In this document: one piece after another, positions 1,646 through 17,873 of the stretch
Numbering within the stretch: position 1 is the first letter of the stretch
Layout: each line of letters starts with the position of its first letter
Source of the DNA: Pseudoselenomonas ruminantium
Lineage (GTDB): Bacteria; Bacillota; Negativicutes; Selenomonadales; Selenomonadaceae
Direction: 5' to 3'
DNA length: 47,547 nt
Assembly (NCBI RefSeq): GCF_900113715.1
Contig: NZ_FOQK01000025.1
Location: 1 to 47,547 of the forward strand
Position numbers and translations under genes: made by a program
Notes under the pieces: model-generated
Seen by the model: the letters and a program-made list of their open reading frames with translations, nothing else
What the model was told of the DNA's origin: nothing
The model's database searches: none

Positions 1646-1682
1646 AAAAAATCCCGCCGTCTGCACGACAGCGAGATTTTTT
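1646..1682. terminator. Terminator of the beta-glucan operon
   Basis: Imperfect hairpin whose outer arms are AAAAAATC (1646-1653) and GATTTTTT (1675-1682), with paired inner segments and a short loop. T-runs occur on both strands. It lies just after the GH9 stop codon and before the ybaB promoter, so it mainly serves the minus strand. Confidence 0.75.
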
Positions 1683-1730
1683 GCAGAAACAGTTTTCCAA
1701 AGTTTTGCTATAGGTTTGAAAAAGAGAATC

Positions 1731-3524
1731 TTACTTCGCCACGACGGGGAAATCGCGCGTAAGCTTTATCTGAGATGCCGTAAGAGCTTCCGGTTTGGCA
1801 AACCATGCCAGAGCATAGGCTGCCGTTCCCGTATAGTCGATGGCATACTCATTCGTAGACCAGGACGACAGGACATCCAAATAGGATTTTGCCGTCGGGA
1901 TATGGCCGCTCTCCAGATACTTCGTCTGATCCGGATCGCCACCCGATACTGCATTCGGTCCACCAACCAAGAGGCCCGGGATATAGGCGCCCGTGCTCTC
2001 ATGGATGCGGTTGTGCGGATGCTCGGGCGGATTAGATCCGGCCCCAGTGAGGAAGCTCTTATCGAGCGAATTGCGGCCAAACATGTAATGGATCTGGGAC
2101 AAAGCACCTTCGACATAGGCCTGTTTCGGCTCAAGCTGATATGCCATCAGCAGCATATCGCCCTGCGTCATGGCATTCTTCGTCGAGGCCCAGGTGTATT
2201 CTTCTTTCGACAGCGCACAGCCAAAGCCGTCTTTAGCGATCTTGCCAGCAATCATATCCGCATAATCGAGATAAACCTTCTTTACCTCGGTCTGCAGACC
2301 TGCATCCGCATTCTTGGACATCGCATAGGCAAACTGCGCCAAGGCCAGCGTGTTATCCCAAGTGAAGAAGCCCGGTGCTTTGGTGAACTCCGCCTTGTTC
2401 GCCTTGAGATACTCTTCATATTTCTTGTCGCCCGTCGTACGGAACATTTCAGCGGCCATCCACAAGCGCTCCTGAATGTCATTCGTATCGTTGTACGGAC
2501 CCGAACCGCTTTCCTGGCCTTCATCCACGCGATAGACCGATTCTTTCGTCTTGGCCAGATAGCCCCATACCTTGTCGGCATCCTTCAGCAGCGACTTGGC
2601 ATATGCCGGATCGAAATCCTTGTAGACGCGGCCACCAATAGCCAGGCTGGCACCATACATCGCCGTGCTAGCCGAGCAAGTGCTGTATAAGAAGCGCTCC
2701 TGCGTATCCGTATCAGGGCTCTTGTCAAAGCCCGGCCACTGGGCACCAGATACCTTATGGAACGTACTGCCATCCTTGCGCATCATCTTTTTCATGAAAT
2801 CAAATTCGTACTTGACTTCATTGAGCGCATCCGGCAGATTCTTATCGTACTTGATGCCTTTCGGGAACAACAGCTGCCCCTTCGTGAAATGATCAGGATG
2901 CGCCTCATAGGCCAGCAGCAGCTCAGCAGCGGCAATGCCAGCTGTCGTCGTGTATTTGCCGTAATCGCCGGCATCATACCAGCCGCCTGTCACATCGACT
3001 TTATCGCCCTTCTTATTGAGCTTGTCCGTGAAATACACCTTGGCTTCTTTGTCCTGCGCATGGCCGTTTTTGACTTTGAGGCCCGTGATACCCGCATCAT
3101 CAATCGGCGTGCCGCTGCGCGTCAGCGTATAGGAACGCCAGGTCTGGACCGCTGGGACAGCATAGACATTGTCGCCGATAGCAAAGTCATAGGATTCACG
3201 ATTGCCCACTTTGAGCTTATATGTACCAGGCGTTTTGAGCCCTGTGAAATCCGCCCGGCGCAGCGTTTCCTCAGACATCGGATCAGCCTTGGCTGCCGAC
3301 AGTTTCCCCGTATAGACAACCTTCCCCGTCTTGGCATCGACTACGCTGAAATCCGTATCGCCGGAATCCGTTACCATAGCTACTTTTTCATAGCCAGTAA
3401 GGTAGCCGACCTGATCGACATGCATACCAGCATCGGCAGCTTCCGTAAGGGATGCCATCCCGCAGGTTCCTAGCATGGCAATCCCCGCCAGTACCAACTG
3501 GCAAAGTCTTTTCTTGCTCTGCAT
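1731..3524 (-). CDS. Secreted GH9 endoglucanase
   Basis: 597 aa. Residues 1-30 form a signal peptide (KKR, hydrophobic core, cleavage near TEA-A). Residues about 33-120 match the immunoglobulin-like domain found before many GH9 modules (HVDQVGYLTGYEKVAMV, PGTYKLKVG). The rest is a GH9 (alpha/alpha)6 barrel: GGWYDAGDYGKY at 180-191 holds the catalytic-base aspartates, HPHNRIHES is the conserved His/Arg block, and NEYAIDYTGTAAY carries the proton donor at about E559. GH9 enzymes cut beta-1,4-glucans (cellulose, mixed-linkage glucan) with inversion. No carbohydrate-binding or dockerin module is visible. It is last in the operon, 14 bases after the lichenase gene, and is followed by a terminator. 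Whether the product is periplasmic, surface-bound or released cannot be told. Confidence 0.93.
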   Translation of the reverse strand: MQSKKRLCQLVLAGIAMLGTCGMASLTEAADAGMHVDQVGYLTGYEKVAMVTDSGDTDFSVVDAKTGKVVYTGKLSAAKADPMSEETLRRADFTGLKTPGTYKLKVGNRESYDFAIGDNVYAVPAVQTWRSYTLTRSGTPIDDAGITGLKVKNGHAQDKEAKVYFTDKLNKKGDKVDVTGGWYDAGDYGKYTTTAGIAAAELLLAYEAHPDHFTKGQLLFPKGIKYDKNLPDALNEVKYEFDFMKKMMRKDGSTFHKVSGAQWPGFDKSPDTDTQERFLYSTCSASTAMYGASLAIGGRVYKDFDPAYAKSLLKDADKVWGYLAKTKESVYRVDEGQESGSGPYNDTNDIQERLWMAAEMFRTTGDKKYEEYLKANKAEFTKAPGFFTWDNTLALAQFAYAMSKNADAGLQTEVKKVYLDYADMIAGKIAKDGFGCALSKEEYTWASTKNAMTQGDMLLMAYQLEPKQAYVEGALSQIHYMFGRNSLDKSFLTGAGSNPPEHPHNRIHESTGAYIPGLLVGGPNAVSGGDPDQTKYLESGHIPTAKSYLDVLSSWSTNEYAIDYTGTAAYALAWFAKPEALTASQIKLTRDFPVVAK

Positions 3525-3538
3525 GATACTATCACTCC

Positions 3539-4336
3539 TTATTCTGCAAACGGCGTATACTTGATGGATTTGTATTCAGCCACCAGCGGCATGTTGTCAT
3601 CTTTGAAGGGCTTGAGCCACTCATCGACGCCTTTGCCACACCATGCGTTCATAAGGATGCGGCCCTTCGTGCACGGCAGGTCGCCCCCTTCGACACGGTA
3701 GACCTCTTTGCCATCGACATACCAGATGATAGAGTTCTTGTGCCACTCGAATGCGTAGGTATGGAAGTCTTCCGATGCATCAAAGCCCAGGTCGATCATC
3801 TTCTCATGACCACCAACACCCTTGCGGAAATAGTTGAGCTGAACCTTCGTGGTGTCCTTGCCAAGTACCTCGAAGTCGATCTCATCCCAGTCGTTGCCGT
3901 TGTCATAAGGACCCGTGCAGGTAAAGAACGAGGAGACAACACCATCATTCTTGATGGCCTTCATCGTCGTTTCAAAACGGCCATAACCATAGAAATTCTT
4001 GGTACGATACTCACCACCGGAATACGGAACCTTATCCGCCGCCGGATTCGGCGAAGCATCAACAATCAACTGCATTGCACCATCTTCAAATGTGACATTT
4101 TCTTTATGCCAGAATACATTGAACGGATTGCCATTCGTCCAGCCATCCGAAGGGATGGAGATGTCATTCTGCCCGCCTTTCGTCAAATCGATCGTAAAGG
4201 CATCACTGGCTTTCGTTTCCGCTGCCGGTGCAGCAGAAACAATTGCCGGCGAAACCACATCCAGCGAAACAGAGACCGGAGCTGCCAGTGCAGCCAAAAC
4301 TGCTACTGCCAAAGCTTTCTTGCGAATATCCATCAT
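3539..4336 (-). CDS. Secreted GH16 lichenase (beta-1,3-1,4-glucanase)
   Basis: 265 aa from the chosen ATG at 4336. A longer reading from 4357 is possible, but GGGAGG lies inside that extension at correct spacing for 4336. The signal peptide is long and Ala-rich (residues about 1-40). The mature part closely resembles Bacillus lichenases: GEYRTKNFYGYGRFE, VVSSFFTCTGPYDN, catalytic WDEIDFEVLG (E152, D154, E156 in this numbering), GKDTTKVQLNYFRKGVGGHE, and WYVDGKEVYR. The enzyme cleaves beta-1,4 bonds next to beta-1,3 bonds in cereal-type glucans. It sits between the GH1 and GH9 genes and should supply short oligosaccharides for the PTS. Confidence 0.93.
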   Translation of the reverse strand: MMDIRKKALAVAVLAALAAPVSVSLDVVSPAIVSAAPAAETKASDAFTIDLTKGGQNDISIPSDGWTNGNPFNVFWHKENVTFEDGAMQLIVDASPNPAADKVPYSGGEYRTKNFYGYGRFETTMKAIKNDGVVSSFFTCTGPYDNGNDWDEIDFEVLGKDTTKVQLNYFRKGVGGHEKMIDLGFDASEDFHTYAFEWHKNSIIWYVDGKEVYRVEGGDLPCTKGRILMNAWCGKGVDEWLKPFKDDNMPLVAEYKSIKYTPFAE

Positions 4337-4361
4337 TCTGTATTCCTCCCGATTCATATAA

Positions 4362-6109
<1,748 letters not shown>

Positions 6110-6118
6110 TATAAAACC

Positions 6119-6421
6119 TCAATCCTTCATAAGTTTACGCGCGAAATCCAGAGCACCCTTGCCATCCATGCGGCCATACATGCGCATGTCGATTGCATCT
6201 ACCGGAATCCCCGGAATCTGCTCGGCAATCTTGTTCTTCTGGAAGCGGATCTGCGGTCCCAGCAGGACACAGTCCGCATCAGCTGCCTTCGTTGCCGCCT
6301 CCGATGCGGAGAACGCATCGATCGAGCAATCGTAGTTATCAGCAGCTGCTGCCTCTTTCATCTTCTTGACCAGCATGCTCGTGGACATCCCCGACGCACA
6401 AAGCAAAACAATCTTTTTCAT
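6119..6421 (-). CDS. celA: PTS cellobiose-family IIB protein
   Basis: 100 aa, usual for a free-standing cellobiose IIB. The phosphocysteine is C8 in VLLCASGMSTSMLV; VLLGPQIRFQ and the C-terminal region agree with the family. Cytoplasmic; receives phosphate from IIA and passes it to the sugar entering through IIC. It follows the porin gene by 52 bases, the longest gap inside the operon. A clear AGGGGAG ribosome site lies before the ATG. Confidence 0.95.
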   Translation of the reverse strand: MKKIVLLCASGMSTSMLVKKMKEAAAADNYDCSIDAFSASEAATKAADADCVLLGPQIRFQKNKIAEQIPGIPVDAIDMRMYGRMDGKGALDFARKLMKD

Positions 6422-6473
6422 GATAAACTCTCCCCTTTGACTTTGGAAAAACTATAGTATTGACAAATCACGC

Positions 6474-7712
6474 TTAGAAATGGTAATCGAGCTGGGTGCG
6501 GATAAGGTTGCGTTTGAACGACTTTTTCTCCCACCATTCGCCATCGGCTTTCTGCGACATGCCGCAGTCAGCAATCTGATAGAACGTCTCCCATTCGACA
6601 TTCTTCCACGGCACATATTTGAAGCCGACCGTCCAGCCCTTGGAATCCTTGAGCAGCGATCCCCAAGCATCATCAGCCCAGATATTGCCATGCGCCTGGA
6701 TGTCATGGTAGCGCAGATAAGCACCGAACGAACCGACGACCGATGGATTCGTCCACTTATAATCCAGTCGGGCCAGATAGGCACGGTTATTATCCTGTTC
6801 ACCTGGGTCTGCCTGATAATTCGTCTGCACATAATCCGCAGTAAGCCGCAAATTCTTAGCAACATTCGTCGCCGCACTCAAAACAAATCCCTGATTGCCA
6901 AATGGAGTCTTCTGTTTGCCATCTTCATAGAATTTATTGATTTCACCAGTACGGCCAACATTCAACTTTGCATAGGCAAGATTGATATCGAAGTTATGAC
7001 CAATTGGGCCGCGGATTGTCGGGCCCCACATCGAAAAGTCCGCATTATCATACTCAGCCATCGCGTAGTAGAAAGCACCAGCTCGCAATCCTTGTTTCGT
7101 AATCGGATAGCTTACATCGATACCACTCGTGGTGCAGCCAAGCAACGAGAACTGCATGCCAAGCGGACTCCACTTACGGCCCGCATTGATTTCCAAACCG
7201 TTCTTGAGATTGCCCGTAAGCCAAATACGCTGGATCTGTCCATGCTCTCTCTTCAATTTACCTTCCGTGCCATTACCAGTCTGATGCGCGAACCGCTGAT
7301 TTGTCTCGCTCTGGAAATGACCTGTCCATTCATCATTGATTTTGAGATCACCCAGCAAGTTCAGATAATAACGGGAATTATCCTTCTCATCAGCCCAGGC
7401 ATCACCTTGATTGCGAGCGTTATCCTTGTCCCACGATGCACGTACAAAACCATAGATTTTGACGCGATCCTGCTCTGCCTTCAATGCTTGAATATCATTT
7501 TTGTTCTTATTCGCTACCGTCTTTGCATTCTTCAGCTTGTTGTTTTCCTGTTTCAACGCTTTGAGCTGCTCAGCCAGCTGTTGCTGCTGTGCCTCCAATG
7601 CAGCAATGCGTGCAGTGACATCTGTCTCGTCAGCCGGTGCTGCACATACCGTTCCCGTAAGCCCCATAGTCAATCCCAGCAGGATAGCTCCCGTTTTTTT
7701 ACGATTCATCAT
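6474..7712 (-). CDS. Outer-membrane porin with coiled-coil N-terminus
   Basis: 412 aa. Residues 1-25 are a signal peptide (cleavage near CAA-PA). Residues about 30-83 form a coiled coil rich in Gln, Lys and Leu (IAALEAQQQQLAEQLKALK). From about 84 (RVKIYGFVRASWD) the protein alternates amphipathic strands such as GRFETT-like segments, KIYGFVRA, LRLTADYVQ and WTVGFKYVPW, and it ends in aromatic Phe (RTQLDYHF), the C-terminal signature of outer-membrane beta-barrels. This is direct evidence of a two-membrane cell. The gene lies between PTS IIC and IIB with short gaps (16 and 52 bases), so it probably lets beta-gluco-oligosaccharides through the outer membrane. Selectivity is inferred only. Two ATGs in tandem make the start uncertain by one codon. 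Confidence 0.88.
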   Translation of the reverse strand: MMNRKKTGAILLGLTMGLTGTVCAAPADETDVTARIAALEAQQQQLAEQLKALKQENNKLKNAKTVANKNKNDIQALKAEQDRVKIYGFVRASWDKDNARNQGDAWADEKDNSRYYLNLLGDLKINDEWTGHFQSETNQRFAHQTGNGTEGKLKREHGQIQRIWLTGNLKNGLEINAGRKWSPLGMQFSLLGCTTSGIDVSYPITKQGLRAGAFYYAMAEYDNADFSMWGPTIRGPIGHNFDINLAYAKLNVGRTGEINKFYEDGKQKTPFGNQGFVLSAATNVAKNLRLTADYVQTNYQADPGEQDNNRAYLARLDYKWTNPSVVGSFGAYLRYHDIQAHGNIWADDAWGSLLKDSKGWTVGFKYVPWKNVEWETFYQIADCGMSQKADGEWWEKKSFKRNLIRTQLDYHF

Positions 7713-7728
7713 CTAACTCCCCTTTATC

Positions 7729-9072
7729 TCAATGTGTAGTGACTGCATCCGTATCTTCGACGTTCTCCTCAGACTGCTCACCGCGTTCCTCTTTAAGGAA
7801 GGCATTGTCCTGCGCCTTGAGGAACGGGAAGTAGACAGCCGTAGCGATGGCAAGGTTCACAATCTGTACGACAGCGCCCTGCCAGCCACCGAGCAAGAAG
7901 CCAGCGATTACCGGCGGCGTCGTCCAGGGAACCTGTACAGCACTGAACGGAGCCATGAAGCCCAGCGAAATCGAGAAATACGTGACAAACATAGCCAGCA
8001 GCGGTACCAGGATAAACGGTACGAGCAGATACGGATTGAAGACGATCGGCAGGCCGAAGATGATCGGCTCATTGATATTGAAGAGTCCCGGAACAAAGGC
8101 CATCTTCATCAAGGATTTAAGCTGCTGCGAACGGGCCGTAATCGCACCGGCAATCAGCAGGCCCAGCGTAAGGCCACAGCCACCGCTCTTGACAAACACA
8201 TCATTGATCTGGCAAGTGAATATCTTAGCCTGCGGGTTGTTGATAAGGCTCATGCCCGCATCGATGATATGCTGGTTGTCCAACGAGTTGGCAATCAAGA
8301 GCGGGCTGACTACACCGCCGACAACGTTCGGGCCATGGATACCAGCCCAGAACAGGATGCTCTGCAAACCGACGATGATCGAACCACCAGCCAGCGAATC
8401 CGAAAGACCCTGCAGCGGCGTCTGGATGACTTTGAAAATAAGCTCTGGCAGCGTCGTAGCGCCGATATAATGGCAAAGGCCATAGAGTACCGATGCCGTT
8501 GTGAAGAAGATCATACCCGGTACCAGAGCCGTAAAGGCTTTGGCAACGCCCGAAGGCACCGAATCCGGCATCTTGATGCCGATATGATTCTTCTCGCAAT
8601 AGCAGAACACATACGAAACAAAGAAGGCAATGATGATTGCCGTGATGACACCGTTACTGCCAGCCCAAGCCTTCGGAATGATATCACCAACAGTCTCCCC
8701 ACCCTTGGTGATGATGGACGGCGGCAGCAGGATCAGGAACGTGGACAAGGCCAGGATCGACGCCATGATTGCATCGCAGCCTTCGTTCTCTACATATTTA
8801 TACGTGATAGACAAAACTACGATAAGTGCCAGCACGCTGAACGTACCACCAGCAACTGCATTGAGCGGTGCCGTCCAATCGTTGCCGAATAGCGAAGCCA
8901 TGAACTCAGCATAACCGGGAATCGGCAGATTTGCGAGCAGCAGGAACACCGAACCGCAAATCGTGAATGGCGTCGTCATGATGAAACCATCACGCAGAGC
9001 TGCTACAGCACGAATCTGAGCGAACTCTCCCATGAATTCGATAAACTTATCGAACAGTTCTTGTTTACTCAT
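7729..9072 (-). CDS. celB: PTS cellobiose-family IIC permease
   Basis: 447 aa with about ten membrane segments. Typical family blocks: RDGFIMTTPFTICGSVFLLLANLP, FAGI-like FWAGIHGPNVVGGVVSPLL, and the conserved FNINEPIIFGLPIVFNPYLLVPFIL, followed by QVPWTTPPVIAGFLLGG. The product moves and phosphorylates beta-diglucosides across the inner membrane with IIA and IIB. I chose the ATG at 9072, which has AGAGGA upstream, rather than a reading from 9093. It is the first gene of the operon, so permease synthesis leads the transcript. The C-terminal 25 residues are acidic and soluble. Confidence 0.93.
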   Translation of the reverse strand: MSKQELFDKFIEFMGEFAQIRAVAALRDGFIMTTPFTICGSVFLLLANLPIPGYAEFMASLFGNDWTAPLNAVAGGTFSVLALIVVLSITYKYVENEGCDAIMASILALSTFLILLPPSIITKGGETVGDIIPKAWAGSNGVITAIIIAFFVSYVFCYCEKNHIGIKMPDSVPSGVAKAFTALVPGMIFFTTASVLYGLCHYIGATTLPELIFKVIQTPLQGLSDSLAGGSIIVGLQSILFWAGIHGPNVVGGVVSPLLIANSLDNQHIIDAGMSLINNPQAKIFTCQINDVFVKSGGCGLTLGLLIAGAITARSQQLKSLMKMAFVPGLFNINEPIIFGLPIVFNPYLLVPFILVPLLAMFVTYFSISLGFMAPFSAVQVPWTTPPVIAGFLLGGWQGAVVQIVNLAIATAVYFPFLKAQDNAFLKEERGEQSEENVEDTDAVTTH

Positions 9073-9146
9073 GTTCTTTTTCCTCTTTTCCAATAGTCGA
9101 TAACCTTGAGGCTGCGCGCCCAGCCCCGTCCCCTTAAGGTAAGTCT

Positions 9147-9176
9147 AATATAACACGCCGTACTTTTTGCGCACAA
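9147..9176 (-). promoter_or_regulatory. Putative promoter of the beta-glucan operon
   Basis: Minus strand: -35 TTGTGC (9171-9176), 18-base spacer, -10 TATATT (9147-9152), about 75 bases before the IIC start. Both boxes are imperfect, as expected for a regulated promoter. Upstream at 9215-9235 is an imperfect palindrome (GCAC, AAAGA, TCTTT, GTGC with a 2-base bulge) that could be a regulator site. The rest of 9073-9289 is AT-rich and holds no gene. Confidence 0.4.
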
Positions 9177-9289
9177 TAACGCCAAACCAATACGAAACAC
9201 TGATTCAACGAAGTGCACAGAAAGATTCTTTGTGCTGTATCACTGTTACATATATTGCAGGTATTTGAAATATTCTGTTATTTACGCAT

Positions 9290-9316
9290 AAAAAAAGGCT
9301 TCCCCGCAGGGAAGCC
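9290..9316 (-). terminator. Terminator after the RpiR gene
   Basis: Perfect 8-bp stem (9297-9304 with 9309-9316), 4-base loop, followed on the minus strand by a run of seven T. It begins about 12 bases after the rpiR stop and ends the dnaX-rpiR transcript before the beta-glucan operon promoter. Confidence 0.92.
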
Positions 9317-9328
9317 AGAAAATCTTCA

Positions 9329-10171
9329 TCAGTAGTAAAAATGCTTGTTGAGCCACTGCTCCTTTTGCTGGGCATTTTTGTAATCCACCCGTGTCATCAG
9401 CACAGCAAACAAGATATCGGTCACGTATTTCGCCGTCAGCAGGAAGACGCGCGGCCCCAATTCTTCCATGGACTTCACCGTCGCCACAGGAAAAACCACC
9501 TCTGCCATGGAGGCCAGGGACGAATGCGGTGCCGCCGTCAGCAGGATGATGGAATTGCCCCGGAGTTTGAGCAGATGCGCGATATCGAGCAGCATACGGT
9601 TCTCGCCCGTCCGGCTGATGAAAAATGCCACATGATCCTTGGGCGCACCAGTCGCCTGCAAATACTGCATGGTCATAGCCGGATGAACGGTCGAACACTT
9701 ATTGGCCATGATGAAGCTGGAAGCAGCCATATTCGCGATATCGAGATTGTTGTCCGTCGCGTAGAAATCAATATGGTTCGTCTTGTTGAGCAGCGCCAGC
9801 GCCCGCACAAAATCAGCCGGGTCGAGCATCGTCCGCGTATCCTTGATCGCATCGAGCTCAATACTCGTAACCTTATCCAGCAGCGAGTGCACGGAGTCGC
9901 GATCCGTCATGACAAGCTCATCGCCATGGGGCCGTTCAATATAGCGCATCATCTCCGCCAGGAATTTGACCCGGAACTCCGTATAACCGCCAAACCCCAG
10001 CTTCTGGCTGAAGCGGACGATCGCTGCGGAGCTCGTAAAGGTTTCCTTGGCCAGCTGGCGCGTAGACATTCCTGGCAGCATGCGGAAATGCGTCAGCAGA
10101 TAGTCCGCAATCATCGCCTCAGATTCCGAAAATCCTGTCTTCTCTTGCAGTTGCTTCACTAACCCTGTCAT
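9329..10171 (-). CDS. RpiR/MurR-family transcriptional regulator
   Basis: 280 aa with the two RpiR domains: an N-terminal helix-turn-helix (residues about 1-75; MSTRQLAKETFTSSAAIVRFSQKLGFGGYTEFR) and a C-terminal SIS sugar-phosphate-binding domain (about 125-255; GAPKDHVAFFISRTGENRMLLDIAHLLKLRGNSIILLT). Such proteins sense phosphosugars made by PTS uptake. It lies immediately upstream of the beta-glucan PTS operon, which is its likely target. Its ATG overlaps the dnaX stop by four bases (ATGA), so it is translationally coupled to dnaX and probably expressed constitutively at low level. Activator or repressor role is unknown. Confidence 0.92.
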   Translation of the reverse strand: MTGLVKQLQEKTGFSESEAMIADYLLTHFRMLPGMSTRQLAKETFTSSAAIVRFSQKLGFGGYTEFRVKFLAEMMRYIERPHGDELVMTDRDSVHSLLDKVTSIELDAIKDTRTMLDPADFVRALALLNKTNHIDFYATDNNLDIANMAASSFIMANKCSTVHPAMTMQYLQATGAPKDHVAFFISRTGENRMLLDIAHLLKLRGNSIILLTAAPHSSLASMAEVVFPVATVKSMEELGPRVFLLTAKYVTDILFAVLMTRVDYKNAQQKEQWLNKHFYY

Positions 10172-11874
10172 TTGTCATCCTCGATTTCTACTACATGATC
10201 CCCAAAATAGTTGAAAGCCGTCTCCAGCGGCGCCCGCTCCTCCGGCGGAATGTCATTGAGGTCCACCGGAATGGTTGGCGGCTCCTCTGGCAGCGGAATG
10301 GATTCCGCCCGCGGTTTTGGTTTGGGACGCGGCGGCGGAGCCATCGGCATGTCTTCGCCACTGCACGACAGATGCAGTTCGCGCCCCGTGATTTCCTGCA
10401 GCAGCGCTTCAAGCTGCTGCCGATAATTGCGCATCGTCAGCGACGCCATCAGACTGCCCTTGAATTGGATGAAAAACTGCTTTTCAGTCATACCGGCAAA
10501 ACTTCCCTGCTGTACACAGGCCAGGATCGGCATCTTATTGGTCTCCCGCAATCTGCGCAACAGGGTATCCCAGACCTCTGCATCAGCCGCCGTGACCTCC
10601 AGCGGCGCAGGCGGCGGTGCAGTCTGCGCCTGGACCGGAGGTGCAGGGCGCACAGCAGCTTTGGCAGCTGCTGCCGGAGCTGCCGGTCTTGCTGCCAGAG
10701 CTGCCGTTACCTGGGCCAGCTTGGCCTCCAGCTGGGCGATGCGCGGATCTGCGGCTGCCGCAGGCGCAGCCGCCGGATTGACGGCAGCTGCCTCCGGACG
10801 GCACAAAGCCAGCAGGGCAACCTCGACTGTGATGCGCGGCTGCGGCGACCATTTCATTTCGTTCATTGCCTCATGCAGGCGCTTGATCATCTGCATGATC
10901 TGCTCTGACGTAAATAGCTGCGTCTGCTCCTTGAGCACTTCATCCTGCTCAGCATATAGATCCATATTCGCTACCGTACCTGCGGCCTGATAGATCATCA
11001 AACTGCGCAGGTGCAGCGAAAGCTCCGCCACGATCTGCTTGAGATCCTTGCCATCCCGCAAGAGCTCCGCGATGATTTCGAGCACTTCCTGCGCCTTATG
11101 TGCGGCCAAAGCCCTTGTCATGCGGTAGATCCAATCATGACCGACAAGACCTAGGATCTGCCGCACGCGCTCAGCCGTGATCTTCCCCTCAGCCAGCGCC
11201 GAACATTGATCGAGGATCGAGAGGGCATCACGCAGACCACCATCGGCCTGGACAGCAATCATCGTCAGGGCCTCATCCTCAGCATCCAGCTGCATTTCCT
11301 CGGCCACATAAGCCAGCCGCTCACGGATCTCCTCCACCGTGATGCGCTTGAAATCGTAGCGCTGGCAGCGCGACTGGATCGTCGCCGGCACCTTGTGCGC
11401 CTCCGTAGTCGCCAGGATGAAGACGACATGTGCCGGCGGCTCCTCCAGCGTCTTGAGCAGCGCATTGAAAGCCTCCGACGTCAGCATATGGACCTCATCG
11501 ATGATATAGACCTTATAACGGCCATCCACCGGTGCGAATTTCACCGTCTCACGCAGGTCGCGGATCTCATCGATACCACGGTTCGAAGCCGCATCGATCT
11601 CAAAGACATCCATCGACGAACCATCATTTATCTTGCGGCACTGCTCACACTCGCCACAGGGATCAGGCGTCGGGCCCTGCTCACAGTTCAACGCTTTCGC
11701 CAAGATCTTAGCTGTACTTGTCTTACCTGTACCACGCGGGCCTGAAAACAGATAGGCATGACCGATGCGCCCCGATGTGATGGCATTGGACAAGGTCCGG
11801 CTGATATGTTCCTGCCCCACCAGGTCCTTGAAACTGCCCGGACGCCATTTCCGGTATAATGCAATATACGCCAT
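10168..11874 (-). CDS. dnaX: DNA polymerase III subunit gamma/tau
   Basis: 568 aa from the ATG at 11874, with AAGGGGAG upstream. An open extension to 12045 is not real because it runs through the SRP RNA. Domains: AAA+ clamp-loader ATPase with Walker A GPRGTGKTS (45-53), four zinc cysteines (C64, C73, C76, C79), Walker B IIDEVHML, sensor-1 LATTEAHKVP and the Arg-finger region; then helical domain III (to about 360); then an Ala/Pro-rich linker (about 385-450) and a C-terminal tau-like region. It loads the beta clamp in the replisome. Gene order SRP RNA-dnaX agrees with Bacillus. The downstream partner is rpiR instead of ybaB. Confidence 0.97.
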   Translation of the reverse strand: MAYIALYRKWRPGSFKDLVGQEHISRTLSNAITSGRIGHAYLFSGPRGTGKTSTAKILAKALNCEQGPTPDPCGECEQCRKINDGSSMDVFEIDAASNRGIDEIRDLRETVKFAPVDGRYKVYIIDEVHMLTSEAFNALLKTLEEPPAHVVFILATTEAHKVPATIQSRCQRYDFKRITVEEIRERLAYVAEEMQLDAEDEALTMIAVQADGGLRDALSILDQCSALAEGKITAERVRQILGLVGHDWIYRMTRALAAHKAQEVLEIIAELLRDGKDLKQIVAELSLHLRSLMIYQAAGTVANMDLYAEQDEVLKEQTQLFTSEQIMQMIKRLHEAMNEMKWSPQPRITVEVALLALCRPEAAAVNPAAAPAAAADPRIAQLEAKLAQVTAALAARPAAPAAAAKAAVRPAPPVQAQTAPPPAPLEVTAADAEVWDTLLRRLRETNKMPILACVQQGSFAGMTEKQFFIQFKGSLMASLTMRNYRQQLEALLQEITGRELHLSCSGEDMPMAPPPRPKPKPRAESIPLPEEPPTIPVDLNDIPPEERAPLETAFNYFGDHVVEIEDDK

Positions 11875-12105: not shown

Positions 12106-12197
12106 TGGCGGAGAGTGAGAGATTCGAACTCTCGATACAGCGTTCACCGTATACACGCTTTCCAGGCGTGCTCCTTCAACCACTCGGACAACTCTCC
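12106..12197 (-). tRNA. tRNA-Ser (anticodon GGA)
   Basis: 92 nt with encoded CCA. Acceptor stem GGAGAGT/ACTCTCC with G discriminator; anticodon stem CACGC/GCGTG around loop CTGGAAA, giving anticodon GGA (reads UCC/UCU); long class II variable arm; T arm GAGAG-TTCGAAT-CTCTC. A consensus promoter lies upstream and the SRP RNA follows 35 bases downstream. Confidence 0.97.
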
Positions 12198-12998: not shown

Positions 12999-13374
12999 TC
13001 GCAGCGACCTTCTTTCGGACCGTCTCGATGGTCTTCTTGATCTGGTCGCTGGAGTATGGTTTCTGGATGAAATCCATTGCCCCCATCTTGAGGGTAACCA
13101 TGAGCTTCTGCGGCGTTCCTGCCGACGAAAGCATGACAACCGGCAGATCAGGATTCACTTCCTTGATGACCTGCAATGCCTCGATGCCTCCAACTTCCGG
13201 CATCACGATATCCAAAAAGATACAGTCGACAGATTCCTGCAGATTGATCATGACTGCCTCTTTGCCATTCTCCGCTTCCAACACCTCGCAGTCCAGTGCC
13301 TCCAGTTCCTGGCGCAGTTTCTTGCGCAGCATTTTGGAATCGTCCGTAATCAGCACTCTAAGTTTTCTATCCAA
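12988..13374 (-). CDS. CheY-like single-domain response regulator
   Basis: 128 aa from a TTG at 13374; GAGGGGG lies eight bases upstream of it, while the ATG at 13440 has no ribosome site. A complete receiver domain: acidic pair D11/D12, phosphorylation site D55 in FLDIVMPEVGG, switch residues in VVMLSSAG, and lysine in DFIQKPY. No output domain, so it acts by protein contact as CheY does. The adjacent phosphatase-like gene supports this. No flagellar or che operon is in the window, so its target could be motor or another process. Confidence 0.9.
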   Translation of the reverse strand: MDRKLRVLITDDSKMLRKKLRQELEALDCEVLEAENGKEAVMINLQESVDCIFLDIVMPEVGGIEALQVIKEVNPDLPVVMLSSAGTPQKLMVTLKMGAMDFIQKPYSSDQIKKTIETVRKKVAANGK

Positions 13375-13493
13375 AATTAACGCCCCCTCAGCAATATCTC
13401 TTGCTTCTGCAAATCTTTGTTCTTCGTGATATGCATTCAATCAATGCGATGTATTACTTAATTCGGCGGCCTGCCTGCAAACTCCTTCCCTGC

Positions 13494-13526
13494 AAAAAAA
13501 AGAACCTGACAAAAAGCCAGGTTCTT
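13494..13526 (-). terminator. Terminator after nupC
   Basis: Nine-bp perfect stem (13500-13508 with 13518-13526) and a T-run on the minus strand, 15 bases after the nupC stop. Confidence 0.9.
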
Positions 13527-13540
13527 GCTTTGTTCAGCGA

Positions 13541-14740
13541 TTACCAGATAAAAAGGCCAGCGATGCCTGCCGACAGCAGCGATACCAGGATACCGGACAG
13601 CAGCATGTAGCCGACATTGCGGGAAATCAGATCGTTCTTGTCCTCGTCGACAATGCCCTTGAAGCAGCCGATGATCATACCGACCGTCGAGAAGTTGGCA
13701 AAGGACGTGATGAAGACTGTCAAGACGCCCTGCATGTGCACACTGAAGTCCGCCATGATGTCCTTGACATTAAGCATGACGACAAACTCGTTCGTGATGA
13801 GCTTCGTGCCCATGTACTGCGCCAGCTGGAATGCCTCGCCAGCATCCAAGCCGAGCAGCCAGGCAAACGGGAACATGATGCAGCCGAGGATATTCTCCAA
13901 CGTGACTGACGGATGGATGAGGACGAGCAGCTTATCGATGAGTGCTGCCAGAGCAACGAACGCGATGACGTTGGCGCAGATGATGAGTACCAGGCGGCCA
14001 GCGCCAAGGATCGAGTTGCCGAGGAAGGAGAAGAACGGCTGACGCTCAGCTCCGTTGTCATCCAGCGTAGCGATGACATCTTCCTTTTCCGAGACCCGTA
14101 CCGGATGCAGCAGGTTCGAAACAATCAGCGCGTTGATGCAGTTGAGCGGAACAGCCGTCAGAATGAATTCCGCCGGCATCATCTTCGTGTAGACACCAAT
14201 CAGGGCAGCCGTGACACAGCTCATGGACATCATGGCCAGCGTCAGGTTGCGGTCAGCCTTCATGCGCTTGAGCTGCAGCGTGGAGACAGCCAGTGCCTCC
14301 GTATTGCCAAGGAACATCATCTCGATGGCAAAGAACGACTCAAACTTCGGCGTGCGCGTGATGAACGCCAGTGCCTTGCCGATCCAACGGATGACAAACG
14401 GCAGGATGCCGATGTACGTCAAGATATCAAAAAGCGGTACAACCAGCAGGATCGGCAGCAGTGCCGAGGTGAAGAAGTTCATCTGCTCGACATGGACCCA
14501 ATCGGGGAAAGCAAAGGCAATACCATCGTAAGCAACGCTGACAAGCCAGACGAAGCCTGCCGCTGCACCAGATACGATGTCACGGCCGATTGGGAACGTC
14601 GTCAGGAACCAGGCGATGAACACATTCAAAAGCAACAGCGCACCAACACAGCGCCACTGAATCTCTTTACGTTTCTTGGATAAAAGAACGCCAATGGCCA
14701 GAAAGACCACTACACCAAGAAGATTGATAATGAAATACAT
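13541..14740 (-). CDS. nupC: Concentrative nucleoside transporter NupC
   Basis: 399 aa, typical CNT-family length, with an N-terminal group of helices and the conserved core: NFFTSALLPILLVVPLFDILTYIGILP, FFAIEMMFLGNTEALAVSTLQL, SVTLENILGCIMFPFAWLLGLD, and the signature NEFVVMLNVK and FANFSTVGMIIGCFKGI. It imports nucleosides using an ion gradient in the inner membrane. It is last in the salvage block after cdd, with its own putative promoter and an inverted repeat in the leader. Confidence 0.95.
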   Translation of the reverse strand: MYFIINLLGVVVFLAIGVLLSKKRKEIQWRCVGALLLLNVFIAWFLTTFPIGRDIVSGAAAGFVWLVSVAYDGIAFAFPDWVHVEQMNFFTSALLPILLVVPLFDILTYIGILPFVIRWIGKALAFITRTPKFESFFAIEMMFLGNTEALAVSTLQLKRMKADRNLTLAMMSMSCVTAALIGVYTKMMPAEFILTAVPLNCINALIVSNLLHPVRVSEKEDVIATLDDNGAERQPFFSFLGNSILGAGRLVLIICANVIAFVALAALIDKLLVLIHPSVTLENILGCIMFPFAWLLGLDAGEAFQLAQYMGTKLITNEFVVMLNVKDIMADFSVHMQGVLTVFITSFANFSTVGMIIGCFKGIVDEDKNDLISRNVGYMLLSGILVSLLSAGIAGLFIW

Positions 14741-14770
14741 CTTTTTCTTTCTCTCCTTTTTGCATCATGA

Positions 14771-14820
14771 GAAAATAAGGACACGAGTCCTATTTTCGCA
14801 CACGCATCTGGTATTGTCAA
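14771..14820 (-). promoter_or_regulatory. Putative nupC promoter with overlapping inverted repeat
   Basis: Minus strand: -35 TTGACA (14815-14820), 18-base spacer, -10 AAAATA (14791-14796). An inverted repeat GAAAATAAGGAC / GTCCTATTTTC (14771-14782 with 14787-14797) covers the -10 region. Its centre contains AGGACAC, also found upstream of deoC. It may be an operator or an mRNA hairpin. Confidence 0.5.
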
Positions 14821-14835
14821 ACTTTATCTATGAAT

Positions 14836-15222
14836 TTAGAGATCTTTTTCAGTAAAGGCAAACGGAAGGACTTCCTCCAGGGTAACCACCTTTACATCCC
14901 CCTTGAGATTCGCCATGATGATGCGGTTGATGTGGAACTCTCCCATGACTTGACGGCAGGCACCACATGGTGAACACGGCCCCTCGGTATCGGCAATCAA
15001 AGCGATGGCCTCAATCTCGCGTTCGCCCTCGGATACCGCCTTGAAGATGGCCGTACGCTCCGCACAGTTGGTCAGCGGGTAGCTTGAGTTCTCCACATTG
15101 CAGCCGCCGTACACATTGCCCTTCTTCGTCAGCACCGCCGCACCGACTTTGAAGTTGGAGTACGGGCTATAAGAAAACTCACGGTACTTGCGCGCGACTT
15201 CAATCAATTCTTTGTCATTCAC
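14836..15222 (-). CDS. cdd: Cytidine deaminase
   Basis: 128 aa, the usual length of the homotetrameric form, from a GTG at 15222 with GAGGGAG nine bases upstream; a reading from 15321 would run into the upstream terminator. Zinc site: C53 and proton-shuttle E55 in TNCAERTA, with C86 and C89 in PCGACRQ. Converts cytidine and deoxycytidine to uridine and deoxyuridine, which then feed the pyrimidine phosphorylase encoded upstream. Confidence 0.96.
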   Translation of the reverse strand: MNDKELIEVARKYREFSYSPYSNFKVGAAVLTKKGNVYGGCNVENSSYPLTNCAERTAIFKAVSEGEREIEAIALIADTEGPCSPCGACRQVMGEFHINRIIMANLKGDVKVVTLEEVLPFAFTEKDL

Positions 15223-15268
15223 GCTAAAACACTCCCTCAATACAAAATTTATTGACAATTTTGCCGAT

Positions 15269-15293
15269 AAAAAACGCCTCCCCCAGGGGAGGC
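15269..15293 (-). terminator. Terminator after the pyrimidine phosphorylase gene
   Basis: Eight-bp GC-rich stem (15276-15283 with 15286-15293) with a very short loop and T-run on the minus strand. It lies between pdp and cdd, so it may attenuate rather than fully end transcription into cdd. Confidence 0.8.
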
Positions 15294-15317
15294 ATTCTTT
15301 ATCCCTCGCCGCAACAA

Positions 15318-16640
15318 TCAATACTTTTCGACTTTGTCCTTCTCCACGCGGGCATAGACCAGTGGCTCTTTGACCGGCTGGGTATCGCCGATGACTACAG
15401 CCTCGCGGTACAGGCGCTCCGCATCCTTCAGCGATGCTTCCTTGGACGTGTAGAGCGTCACCAGGCTGTCGCCCTTCTTGACGGCATCACCAAACTTCTT
15501 GTGCAGGACAAGACCTGCCGAGAAGTCAATGTCGCTGTCCTTCGTCTCGCGGCCAGCACCAAGGATGACCGACGTCTCACCGATCTCCTCCGCATTCATC
15601 TTGGTGATGAAACCATCGCGCTCAGCCAAGACTTCCTGCTTGTATGGTGCCTGGGCAAACTTCTCATAGTCGCGCAGCACGGAGTCATCGCCGCCCTGTT
15701 CACGGACCATCGTGCAGAACGTCTCGAAGGCACTGCCATCGGCAATGGCTTTCTCCGCCATCGCCCGGCATTCCTCGATCGTGCCTTTGCCAACGAGATA
15801 CAGCATGTTCTCAGCCAGCTGCAGCGATACTTCCGTAAGGTCAGCCGGGCCACGGCCCTTGAGGACATCCATCGACTCGATGACTTCCAGGCTGTTGCCG
15901 ATGCCAAAGCCCAGCGGCGTATCCATATCGGTGATCAACGCCACCGTGCGGCGGCCAGCGCCCTCGCCGATGGCTACCATCGTCTGCGCGAGCTTGATCG
16001 AGTCATCGAGCGTCTTCATGAAGGCACCGCTGCCCGTCTTGACGTCCAGCAGGATGCAGTCGCTGCCAGCTGCCAGTTTCTTGCTCATGATGGAGGAAGC
16101 AATGAGCGGGATGCTGTCGACCGTAGCCGTGACATCACGCAGCGCATAGAGTTTCTTATCAGCCGGAGCCAGATTGCCCGACTGGCCAATGAGGCTCATA
16201 CCGCATTTGTTGACCGTATCGAAGAATTCCTTGCGGTCGAGCACCGTGCGATAGCCCGGGATCGCCTCGAGCTTATCGACCGTGCCGCCCGTATGCCCAA
16301 GGCCGCGGCCTGACATCTTGGCAACCTTGCCGCCACAGGCCGCCACGATTGGTGCCACGATCAGCGTCGTCTTGTCGCCGACACCGCCCGTAGAATGCTT
16401 GTCGACCTTTTTGCCAGCAATAGCCGACAGATCGATCATATCGCCAGACTGCGCCATGACTTTCGTGAGTTCTGTGATCTCATGATCGTTCATGCCGTTG
16501 AACCAGATGGCCATCGTCATTGCGGACATCTGATAGTCAGGAATCTCACCATTGACATATCCCGTGATCATGAACTGGATTTCCTCATCCGTCAGGACCT
16601 CGCCATGTTTTTTCTTCGTGATAAGATCATACATTCTCAT
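15318..16640 (-). CDS. pdp: Pyrimidine-nucleoside phosphorylase
   Basis: 440 aa. N-terminal helical part (MYDLITKKKHGEVLTDEEIQFMITGYVNGEIPDYQMSA), phosphate and nucleoside site VDKHSTGGVGDKTT, signature KMSGRGLGHTGGTVDKLE, then the alpha/beta domain with DVKTGSGAF. It splits uridine, thymidine or deoxyuridine with phosphate into base plus (deoxy)ribose-1-phosphate. Broad pyrimidine specificity rather than strict thymidine phosphorylase is inferred from Firmicute relatives. The start has AAGGAG at good spacing. Its product goes to DeoB. Confidence 0.95.
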   Translation of the reverse strand: MRMYDLITKKKHGEVLTDEEIQFMITGYVNGEIPDYQMSAMTMAIWFNGMNDHEITELTKVMAQSGDMIDLSAIAGKKVDKHSTGGVGDKTTLIVAPIVAACGGKVAKMSGRGLGHTGGTVDKLEAIPGYRTVLDRKEFFDTVNKCGMSLIGQSGNLAPADKKLYALRDVTATVDSIPLIASSIMSKKLAAGSDCILLDVKTGSGAFMKTLDDSIKLAQTMVAIGEGAGRRTVALITDMDTPLGFGIGNSLEVIESMDVLKGRGPADLTEVSLQLAENMLYLVGKGTIEECRAMAEKAIADGSAFETFCTMVREQGGDDSVLRDYEKFAQAPYKQEVLAERDGFITKMNAEEIGETSVILGAGRETKDSDIDFSAGLVLHKKFGDAVKKGDSLVTLYTSKEASLKDAERLYREAVVIGDTQPVKEPLVYARVEKDKVEKY

Positions 16641-16691
16641 TGCTGCATATCTCCTTTATATAACAGGGGAGGTGATGCCTCCCCCTTATTA

Positions 16692-17873
16692 TCAGTCTTT
16701 CACCAGCCGTGGCAGCAGGCTCTCGCCCTTCGTCTTGAGCTCGCAGCCGAACATATCCGCAATCGTTGCCCCGATCATCGCAAAGGTCGGATACGTGCCC
16801 AGATTCAAACCAGCCTTGATCTGCTTGCCATAGACGAGCAGTGGCACATACTCACGCGTATGATCCGTGCCTGGAGCTCCCGGATCGCAGCCGTGGTCAG
16901 CCGTGATCATCAGCACATCGTCGTCGCGCATCTTGGCCATGAACTCGCCGAGCTGGCGGTCAAAGACCGTGGCAGCCTCAGCATAGCCATCGATATTGCG
17001 ACGGTGGCCGTACTGCATATCAAAGTCGACCAGGTTCACGAAGCACAGGCCCGTGAAATCCTCATCCATGAGCTTCAGCGTCTTTTCCATGCCATCGACA
17101 TTGTCCTTGTTGATGCCAAGGCTGCGGCTGATGCTGCGGCCAGCAAAGATATCCGAGATCTTGCCGACACCAATCGTCTCCAGCCCCTTGCGCTGCAAGG
17201 CGTCCATCATCGTATCACCGGTCGGGTCAAGGGAGAAGTCATGACGGCGCGACGTGCGCGTATAATCCGGGAAACTACCGACATACGGACGGGCAATGAC
17301 ACGGCCGACACCGTGCTCGCCCTGCAGGATCTCGCGAGCCGTCTTGCAGTAGCCATAGAGTTCCTCGATGGGAACATCCGCCTCATTGGCAGCAATCTGA
17401 AATACGCTGTCTGCCGACGTGTAGACGATGAGCCCCCCCGTCTTTTCCTGCTCCTGCCCATAGTCATGGATGACCTGCGTACCCGAATAGGGCTTATTGC
17501 AGAGTATCTTCTTGCCAAAAGCCTTCTCCAGCTTCGCGATGAGGTCAGCCGGGAAGCCATCCGGATAGGTCGGCATCGGCCGCTCGGACACGATGCCCGC
17601 GATCTCCCAATGCCCCGTCGTCGTATCCTTGCCGCGCGAAAGCTCACGCAGGCGGGCAAATGCGCCGATTGGCTCTGCTTCCGGCGTGCCGCAGCCGACA
17701 CCATCGATGTTGAACAGGCCAAGCTTCTTCATGTTCGGCGTGTCGTACTTCGGCGAAGCGGCGATGGATCTGAGCGTATTGCAGACATCGTCGCCAAACT
17801 CCGGCGCATCCGGCTCACGGCCAATACCATAGCTATCCAGAACAATGATGAACGCGCGTTTGAACTTACTCAC
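16692..17873 (-). CDS. deoB: Phosphopentomutase
   Basis: 393 aa from a GTG at 17873 with AAGGGAAGGG just upstream; the open frame continues to 17993 but the extension is Arg-rich and overlaps the deoC end. Alkaline-phosphatase superfamily features: RAFIIVLDSYGIGREPDAPEFGD at the N-terminus, GKDTTTGHWEIAG, and the metal ligands in NLVDFDMQYGHRRN and MITADHGCDPGAPGTDHTREYVPLL. Converts (deoxy)ribose-1-phosphate to the 5-phosphate for DeoC. Confidence 0.97.
   Translation of the reverse strand: MSKFKRAFIIVLDSYGIGREPDAPEFGDDVCNTLRSIAASPKYDTPNMKKLGLFNIDGVGCGTPEAEPIGAFARLRELSRGKDTTTGHWEIAGIVSERPMPTYPDGFPADLIAKLEKAFGKKILCNKPYSGTQVIHDYGQEQEKTGGLIVYTSADSVFQIAANEADVPIEELYGYCKTAREILQGEHGVGRVIARPYVGSFPDYTRTSRRHDFSLDPTGDTMMDALQRKGLETIGVGKISDIFAGRSISRSLGINKDNVDGMEKTLKLMDEDFTGLCFVNLVDFDMQYGHRRNIDGYAEAATVFDRQLGEFMAKMRDDDVLMITADHGCDPGAPGTDHTREYVPLLVYGKQIKAGLNLGTYPTFAMIGATIADMFGCELKTKGESLLPRLVKD

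Follow-up and report, generated by a model that had tools for sequence, protein, structure and literature searches.

A putative beta-glucan operon of the Selenomonadaceae lodged between dnaX and ybaB

Bacillus takes up beta-glucan fragments through the lic (lichenan) and cel (cellobiose) phosphotransferase system (PTS) operons, for which a PRD-type regulator (LicR or CelR) is typical and an exported lichenase acts in the same pathway. In the Bacteroidota, polysaccharide utilization loci combine outer-membrane entry through a SusC/SusD pair with exported glucanases and a regulator. Here we describe a related arrangement in a diderm member of the Firmicutes, Pseudoselenomonas ruminantium: an eight-gene operon at positions 1731–10171 of a 47,547-base window that comprises all of contig C15 (NZ_FOQK01000025.1) of a 3.11 Mb genome. 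In a search with YbaB, the closest named relatives were Selenomonas ruminantium GACV-9 (100% identity in YbaB) and other Selenomonas, which places the genome in that genus. By analogy, this operon is best understood as the counterpart, in a diderm cell, of the lic/cel phosphotransferase operons. It shares with them lactose/cellobiose-family IIA, IIB, and IIC components, a 6-phospho-beta-glucosidase, and a putatively exported lichenase. However, its regulator is of the RpiR type (HTH_6 and SIS domains) rather than the PRD type, and the operon can therefore be said to work like the Bacillus systems without being a member of that family. It differs further in including a porin and a glycoside hydrolase family 9 (GH9) enzyme, in the presence of an outer membrane, and in its site behind dnaX. 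Like the Bacteroidota loci, it gathers a regulator, exported glucanases, and a means of crossing the outer membrane in one place, but uptake is by PTS, and no SusC or SusD family was recovered among the ten proteins scanned. A literature search, at the level of search results, returned no account of this operon or of genes inserted after dnaX. The operon is real, well preserved, and ordinary in kind: a family-wide catabolic operon at a curious address. We consider it probable that, in an ancestor of Selenomonas, a Selenomonadaceae beta-glucan operon came to lie behind the dnaX stop codon and ahead of the ybaB promoter, and that it was then passed on with some losses and one apparent replacement, its RpiR regulator being made from the dnaX transcript.

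The features of the window discussed here lie on the minus strand, in the order tRNA-Ser, signal recognition particle (SRP) RNA, dnaX, the eight operon genes, ybaB, recR, and bofA. The operon itself runs rpiR, PTS IIC, porin, IIB, IIA, GH1, GH16, GH9. A first-pass annotation of this DNA had proposed that a conserved dnaX/ybaB order is interrupted, and this is borne out: the eight-gene block separates dnaX from ybaB-recR-bofA, with a dnaX–ybaB interval of 8,646 nucleotides (nt). The same annotation counted seven operon genes, one too few, and drew the block from 1646 to 10171; the operon proper begins at 1731, and 1645–1683 is the terminator 3' of GH9.

The site was compared across a sample of 22 Selenomonas genomes, 16 of which carry dnaX and ybaB on one contig and are therefore assessable. 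It is occupied in 11 of these 16 (G000, G001, G002, G003, G004, G008, G009, G010, G013, G017, and G019), with intervals of 7.9–17.6 kb and operon genes inside each, and empty in the other five (G005, G011, G012, G014, and G015), where the interval measures 76–129 nt. Broken contigs are consistent with the site in three more genomes: G018 (dnaX to GH9), G006 (IIB to ybaB), and G016 (GH9 end to ybaB). GH9 is also present in G007 and G021, on contigs that do not cover the site, while G020 returned no match for GH9, dnaX, or ybaB; across the sample, GH9 and YbaB were each found in 18 of 22 genomes. At the family level, the 568-residue DnaX query identified dnaX in 170 of 189 genomes at E ≤ 1e-60. 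Outside the genus, 79 genomes have dnaX and ybaB together on a contig, among the matches listed, and the gap is shorter than 1 kb in 75 of them; set against the 8,646 nt found here, this indicates that the unusual gene order is not due to chance. Two genomes of the Mitsuokella group (G164 and G165) show an interval of about 9.1 kb with the operon inside, G164 corresponding by its coordinates to Mitsuokella jalaludinii DSM 13811 (L083), while in a third (G166) the site is empty, at 252 nt.

The history of the operon was examined with a tree of six concatenated operon genes and an rpoB tree of 30 genomes. With the exception of G009, the at-site Selenomonas operons fall into the same subclades in both trees, and constraining the 12 at-site Selenomonas operons to one clade is not rejected (p 0.447). 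Together with the occupancy of 11 of 16 assessable genomes, this makes an operon that is old and mostly vertical within Selenomonas the better reading of the sequence comparisons. The rpoB tree requires at least four changes between an operon at the site and none. The G009 copy looks like a replacement, as it groups with G268 (on long branches, and flagged for this) and its regulator shares only about 47% identity with the RpiR of the window. In G014 and G015, where the site is empty and the set lies elsewhere, the operon copies group with genus g25. Three observations weigh against the preferred explanation. The best operon tree does not recover the 12 Selenomonas operons as a clade, with G024 and G268/G009 loosely placed; a clade of these 12 plus the Mitsuokella operons is rejected (p 8.9e-5), which speaks against a single insertion for both genera; and in G003 (S. 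ruminantium ATCC 12561; L066:7555-10138), IIA and IIB are absent between porin and GH1. The sole IIB match of G003 at E ≤ 1e-10 lies elsewhere in its genome, at 69% identity.

As to an insertion shared by Selenomonas and Mitsuokella, the tree argues against it and the ATGA junction with dnaX for it. It is possible, with somewhat less than an even chance, that the operon was inserted twice, once in each genus, because the gap behind dnaX offers the regulator read-through. Rejection of the joint clade is consistent with this, as are the empty dnaX sites of G126 and of the nearest Mitsuokella relative, G166. Operon copies displaced from dnaX also bear on the question. The full rpiR-to-GH9 order is found away from dnaX in G014, G162, G163, G024, G282, G284, G272, and G274 (in G282 and G284 with the porin match in two pieces), and some of these copies likewise abut an upstream gene: in G272, rpiR starts 4 nt behind nrdD, the nrdD end also lies just upstream in G274 and G014, and in G024, the last 4 nt of a response-regulator gene are shared with rpiR. 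No gene abuts rpiR in G162, G163, or G268 (gaps of at least 148 nt), and no close same-strand neighbor was found near rpiR in G282 or G284. G268 has a displaced set without IIB, and G137, G140, and G146 have a partial set or another order. Two insertions are harder to reconcile with an ATGA junction that is identical in both genera, and moved copies in neighboring genera could blur the operon tree.

In the reading we prefer, a single placement in the Selenomonas ancestor, the point of entry can be narrowed. The empty sites of G011 and G012 leave only a few bases between the dnaX stop codon and the promoter-like site of ybaB, and the insertion point thus lies between these two. In the window, that promoter-like site (TTGACG-17-TAGGCT) occupies 1590–1618, and a corresponding TTGAC-17-TA..CT site stands 37–65 nt before the ybaB start in 19 of the 20 sequences compared, whether the site is occupied or empty; the exception is G017. 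The first-pass view that each side of the block kept its own signals thus stands for the ybaB-recR side, with this promoter-like site and the GH9 terminator, and fails for the regulator, whose start lies inside the dnaX stop codon.

This junction is itself conserved. The rpiR gene (9329–10171), encoding an RpiR/MurR-family regulator, begins within the stop codon of dnaX (10168–11874) with a 4-nt overlap in 10 of 12 at-site junctions (nine ATGA, including the window, and one GTGA). In G003 the overlap is 1 nt, in G013 rpiR directly follows dnaX, and G009 is exceptional in that other genes fill about 6 kb between the two. The overlap leaves little room for a separate rpiR promoter, unless one lies inside dnaX. 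Since, in addition, a terminator-like hairpin (9297–9316; 8-bp stem and T-run) follows rpiR, the regulator is probably expressed from the dnaX transcript.

The structural genes appear to have a control region of their own in the gap before IIC. A promoter-like site at 9147–9176 (TTGTGC-18-TATATT, with TG ahead of the -10) was not listed by a generic promoter scan; a TGnTAT-type -10 precedes IIC in 19 of 19 intergenic sequences. Upstream of it lie two operator-like palindromes, GTAACAGTGATAC (9237–9249) and GAATCAGTGTTTC (9194–9206), 43 nt apart and both conserved in alignment A2. Their shared pattern, GWANCAGYGNTWC, has two matches in the window, both in this gap, against 0.15 expected. A relaxed form of the motif occurs in 15 of the 19 intergenic sequences, nine of which have it twice; the chance value for this comparison serves as a guide only, as the intergenic motif patterns were written after the alignment and chance was estimated by simple first-order resampling. 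Its absence from the remaining four speaks against a general operator role, as does the genome-wide result, in which the pattern is not enriched (6 matches versus 30 for a reversed control). Under the proposed model, RpiR, made from the dnaX transcript and coupled to the dnaX stop codon, would act on the IIC promoter through the two palindromes, and would release them on sensing a phosphorylated sugar, as its SIS domain suggests.

The families of the remaining genes are consistent with a beta-glucan pathway, as the first-pass annotation had read them: the families and their nearest solved relatives agree, and from these we infer the substrate and the location of the enzymes. All three lactose/cellobiose-family PTS components are present: EIIC (7729–9093; PF02378), which exceeds the TIGR00410 cut-off (369 versus 236 bits), EIIB (6119–6421; PF02302), and EIIA (5786–6109; PF02255). 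The GH1 enzyme (4362–5783) passes the cut-off of the 6-phospho-beta-glucosidase model NF007154 (778 versus 624 bits); its nearest solved structure is 3pn8 (E 2.4e-209), with the 6-phospho-beta-glucosidases 4f79 and 2xhy as further relatives. The GH16 enzyme (3539–4357) scores 141 against a cut-off of 22 for PF00722, and its best structural relatives are bacterial 1,3-1,4-beta-glucanases, of which 3wvj is the nearest; a lichenase-type activity is therefore predicted. The GH9 protein (1731–3524; PF00759 and, as a CelD_N domain, PF02927) has 5u0h as its nearest solved structure and GH9 endoglucanases as its relatives. Signal-peptide-like stretches were seen by eye at the N-termini of both GH16 and GH9, which are thus putatively exported, and the motifs regarded as catalytic were likewise seen by eye: DEIDFE in GH16, TFNEIN and VENG in GH1, and DAGD and a late NE in GH9. 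One point detracts from the lichenase assignment: the GH16 score stays slightly short of the BglS cut-off (294.7 versus 300 bits). The same genome carries, on contig C42 (L039:5616-11721), a second PTS/GH1 set with two IIC genes and a more distant RpiR; its IIC, IIB, IIA, and GH1 are 75–79% identical to those of the operon.

These assignments suggest a route in which an OmpM-like, presumably trimeric, porin lets in soluble beta-glucan or its fragments; Sec-exported GH16 and GH9 would cleave chains of mixed-linkage or cello type, either in the periplasm or outside the cell; the lactose/cellobiose-family PTS would import and phosphorylate the resulting disaccharides; and cytoplasmic GH1 would split the 6-phospho-disaccharide. 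It is conceivable, if rather unlikely, that the operon instead scavenges cello-oligosaccharides from the cellulose and xyloglucan of plant cell walls, and not mixed-linkage beta-glucan. Among the matches of GH9 are cellulases, cellobiohydrolases, and a single xyloglucanase, and IIC does match the cellobiose model TIGR00359, below its cut-off (369 versus 434 bits). The best matches of GH16, as 1,3-1,4-beta-glucanases, point instead to a mixed-linkage substrate.

The porin (6474–7712) has no Pfam match above the curated cut-off, and its profile recovers only weak coiled-coil matches among PDB sequences. Its identity is suggested by structure. A model built from 18 aligned relatives (pLDDT 77.2, pTM 0.70) shows a helix at residues 30–81 followed by a barrel, and the best fold match is OmpM1 of Veillonella (Foldseek E 4e-13; Z 25.0 over 300–301 residues, with a root-mean-square deviation of 3.0–3.2), ahead of the next structural entry at Z 19.4. 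OmpM carries an SLH domain at its N-terminus, together with a coiled-coil stalk and a trimeric barrel of 16 strands (PMC10628300). With the Veillonella structures (8bys, 8bym, and 8byt), the porin shares a 16-stranded-type barrel, by fold match, and the coiled-coil stalk. It differs in that its gene sits in a sugar operon and that no SLH family was detected at E ≤ 0.001, with only about 30 residues ahead of the helix. No cell-wall tether is therefore expected, and on this predicted model the protein is OmpM-like without a tether, and not OmpM.

The porin belongs to the operon in the sense that the two travel together, as judged by homology searches: a strong match (E ≤ 4e-178) was found in all eight operon-bearing genomes searched and in none of three operon-less genomes, whose best matches were 1e-48, 1e-13, and none. 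Its descent nonetheless departs from that of its neighbors. Between G018 and G019 the porins are 61.1% identical, while the other operon proteins are 94.5–99.3% and dnaX 92.2% identical; for G004 and G013, the corresponding values are 45.3%, 92.6–97.7%, and 89.5%. DNA identity falls within the porin gene and recovers directly behind it, and the 5' part in G018 and G019, encoding signal and stalk, keeps 86–94% identity. Two of the rpoB groups are rejected in the porin tree, namely G010/G018/G019 (p 8e-49) and G004/G017/G013 (p 2e-6); a clade of G000/G001/G002 is not rejected (p 0.138). These sequence patterns indicate that the porin was exchanged between species while the neighboring genes were not. 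Other barrel genes of the same genomes served as a control, in 14 pairs, two of which (G004c–G013c and G017c–G013c) were dropped because the G013 open reading frame is not the porin. With pairing by search rank rather than synteny, the other barrels ranged from 66 to 99.6% identity, and the operon porin was the less conserved of the two in 11 of the 12 usable pairs; the exception is G000a–G001a (66.2% versus 79.3% for the operon porin). The idea that hypervariability is unique to the operon porin was weakened by this control, and part of the variability is, on these comparisons, general to outer-membrane barrels in these genomes.

A more elaborate coupling of these elements can be imagined, and we regard it as improbable: RpiR would be translationally coupled to the tau subunit, such that repressor level and operon threshold track dnaX; the operon would for this reason settle behind constitutive genes of the dnaX and nrdD type; and the porin would be a swappable cassette selected by phages or by glucan shape.

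That the block arrived recently by horizontal transfer in this one strain or species, as the first-pass annotation had implied, is very improbable and is rejected here. In its favor, the block is missing from the site in most of the family and in 5 of 16 assessable congeners, and the G014 and G015 versions group with g25. Against it, 11 of 16 assessable Selenomonas genomes from several rpoB clades, three more on broken contigs, and two Mitsuokella-group genomes carry the block there, and the subclades look vertical. As to an insertion sequence or genomic island, no direct repeats joining the operon ends were found among the 20 repeat families listed of 36, and no integrase or transposase was found among the ten proteins scanned for families. 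Close relatives largely carry the same genes at the same site with vertical inheritance, the exceptions being the five empty congeners (two with the operon elsewhere), the diverged G009 copy, and the non-vertical porin.

The interval holds additional genes in several relatives. In G009 (L063:1-6154), the genes between dnaX and rpiR encode a glyoxalase, a MarR regulator, a sugar-binding protein, a chemotaxis receptor, a IIB component, and a GGDEF protein; relatives of the binding protein and the receptor lie downstream of GH9 in G268 and G270. Autotransporter-like proteins, called by eye from a signal-like start, repeats, and a barrel-like C-terminus and lacking a Pfam match, occur between GH9 and ybaB in G008 (L056:1572-3605), G017 (L059:8876-10861 and 13065-17231), and G009 (L063:14481-16550), and behind GH9 in G007 (L176, about 1968-4033). 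G004 (L068:16464-17732) carries an opposite-strand zinc-ribbon protein between GH9 and ybaB. Beyond the genus, 15 kb separate dnaX from ybaB in G171 (genus g27; C1:2476201-2493365), and 221 kb in G241.

The genes flanking the operon resemble the Bacillus arrangement in part. The tRNA-Ser (12106–12197) and SRP RNA (12054–11955) lie upstream of dnaX, which encodes the DNA polymerase III tau/gamma subunit (ATG at 11874; 568 amino acids; named from the first-pass annotation and homology), and ybaB (1189–1524; PF02575, TIGR00103), recR (590–1186; TIGR00615), and bofA (357–590; PF07441) follow the operon. The Bacillus-like order proposed earlier is thus present for SRP RNA, dnaX, ybaB, recR, and bofA. 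Its other two members are absent from the window: there is no yaaL between recR and bofA, whose reading frames meet at 590, and an Rfam scan of the whole contig recovered no rRNA. An rRNA lies downstream of bofA in G011 and G165, whereas the 8 kb taken behind recR-bofA in G017 (L229:1-8000) yielded none.

The operon offers a concrete candidate for soluble beta-glucan use by diderm Firmicutes of the rumen and gut, with an OmpM-like porin, two exported glucanases, and a PTS in one operon. Its presence at several chromosomal sites, alongside empty sites in close relatives, makes it a good case for studying how catabolic genes become established downstream of a replication gene, and also for asking whether a housekeeping transcript can drive a regulator. 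As the rest of the operon looks vertical, the exchange of its porin suggests that selection acts at the outer-membrane step. The coupling of dnaX to the regulator and the exchange of the porin are the points that merit testing.

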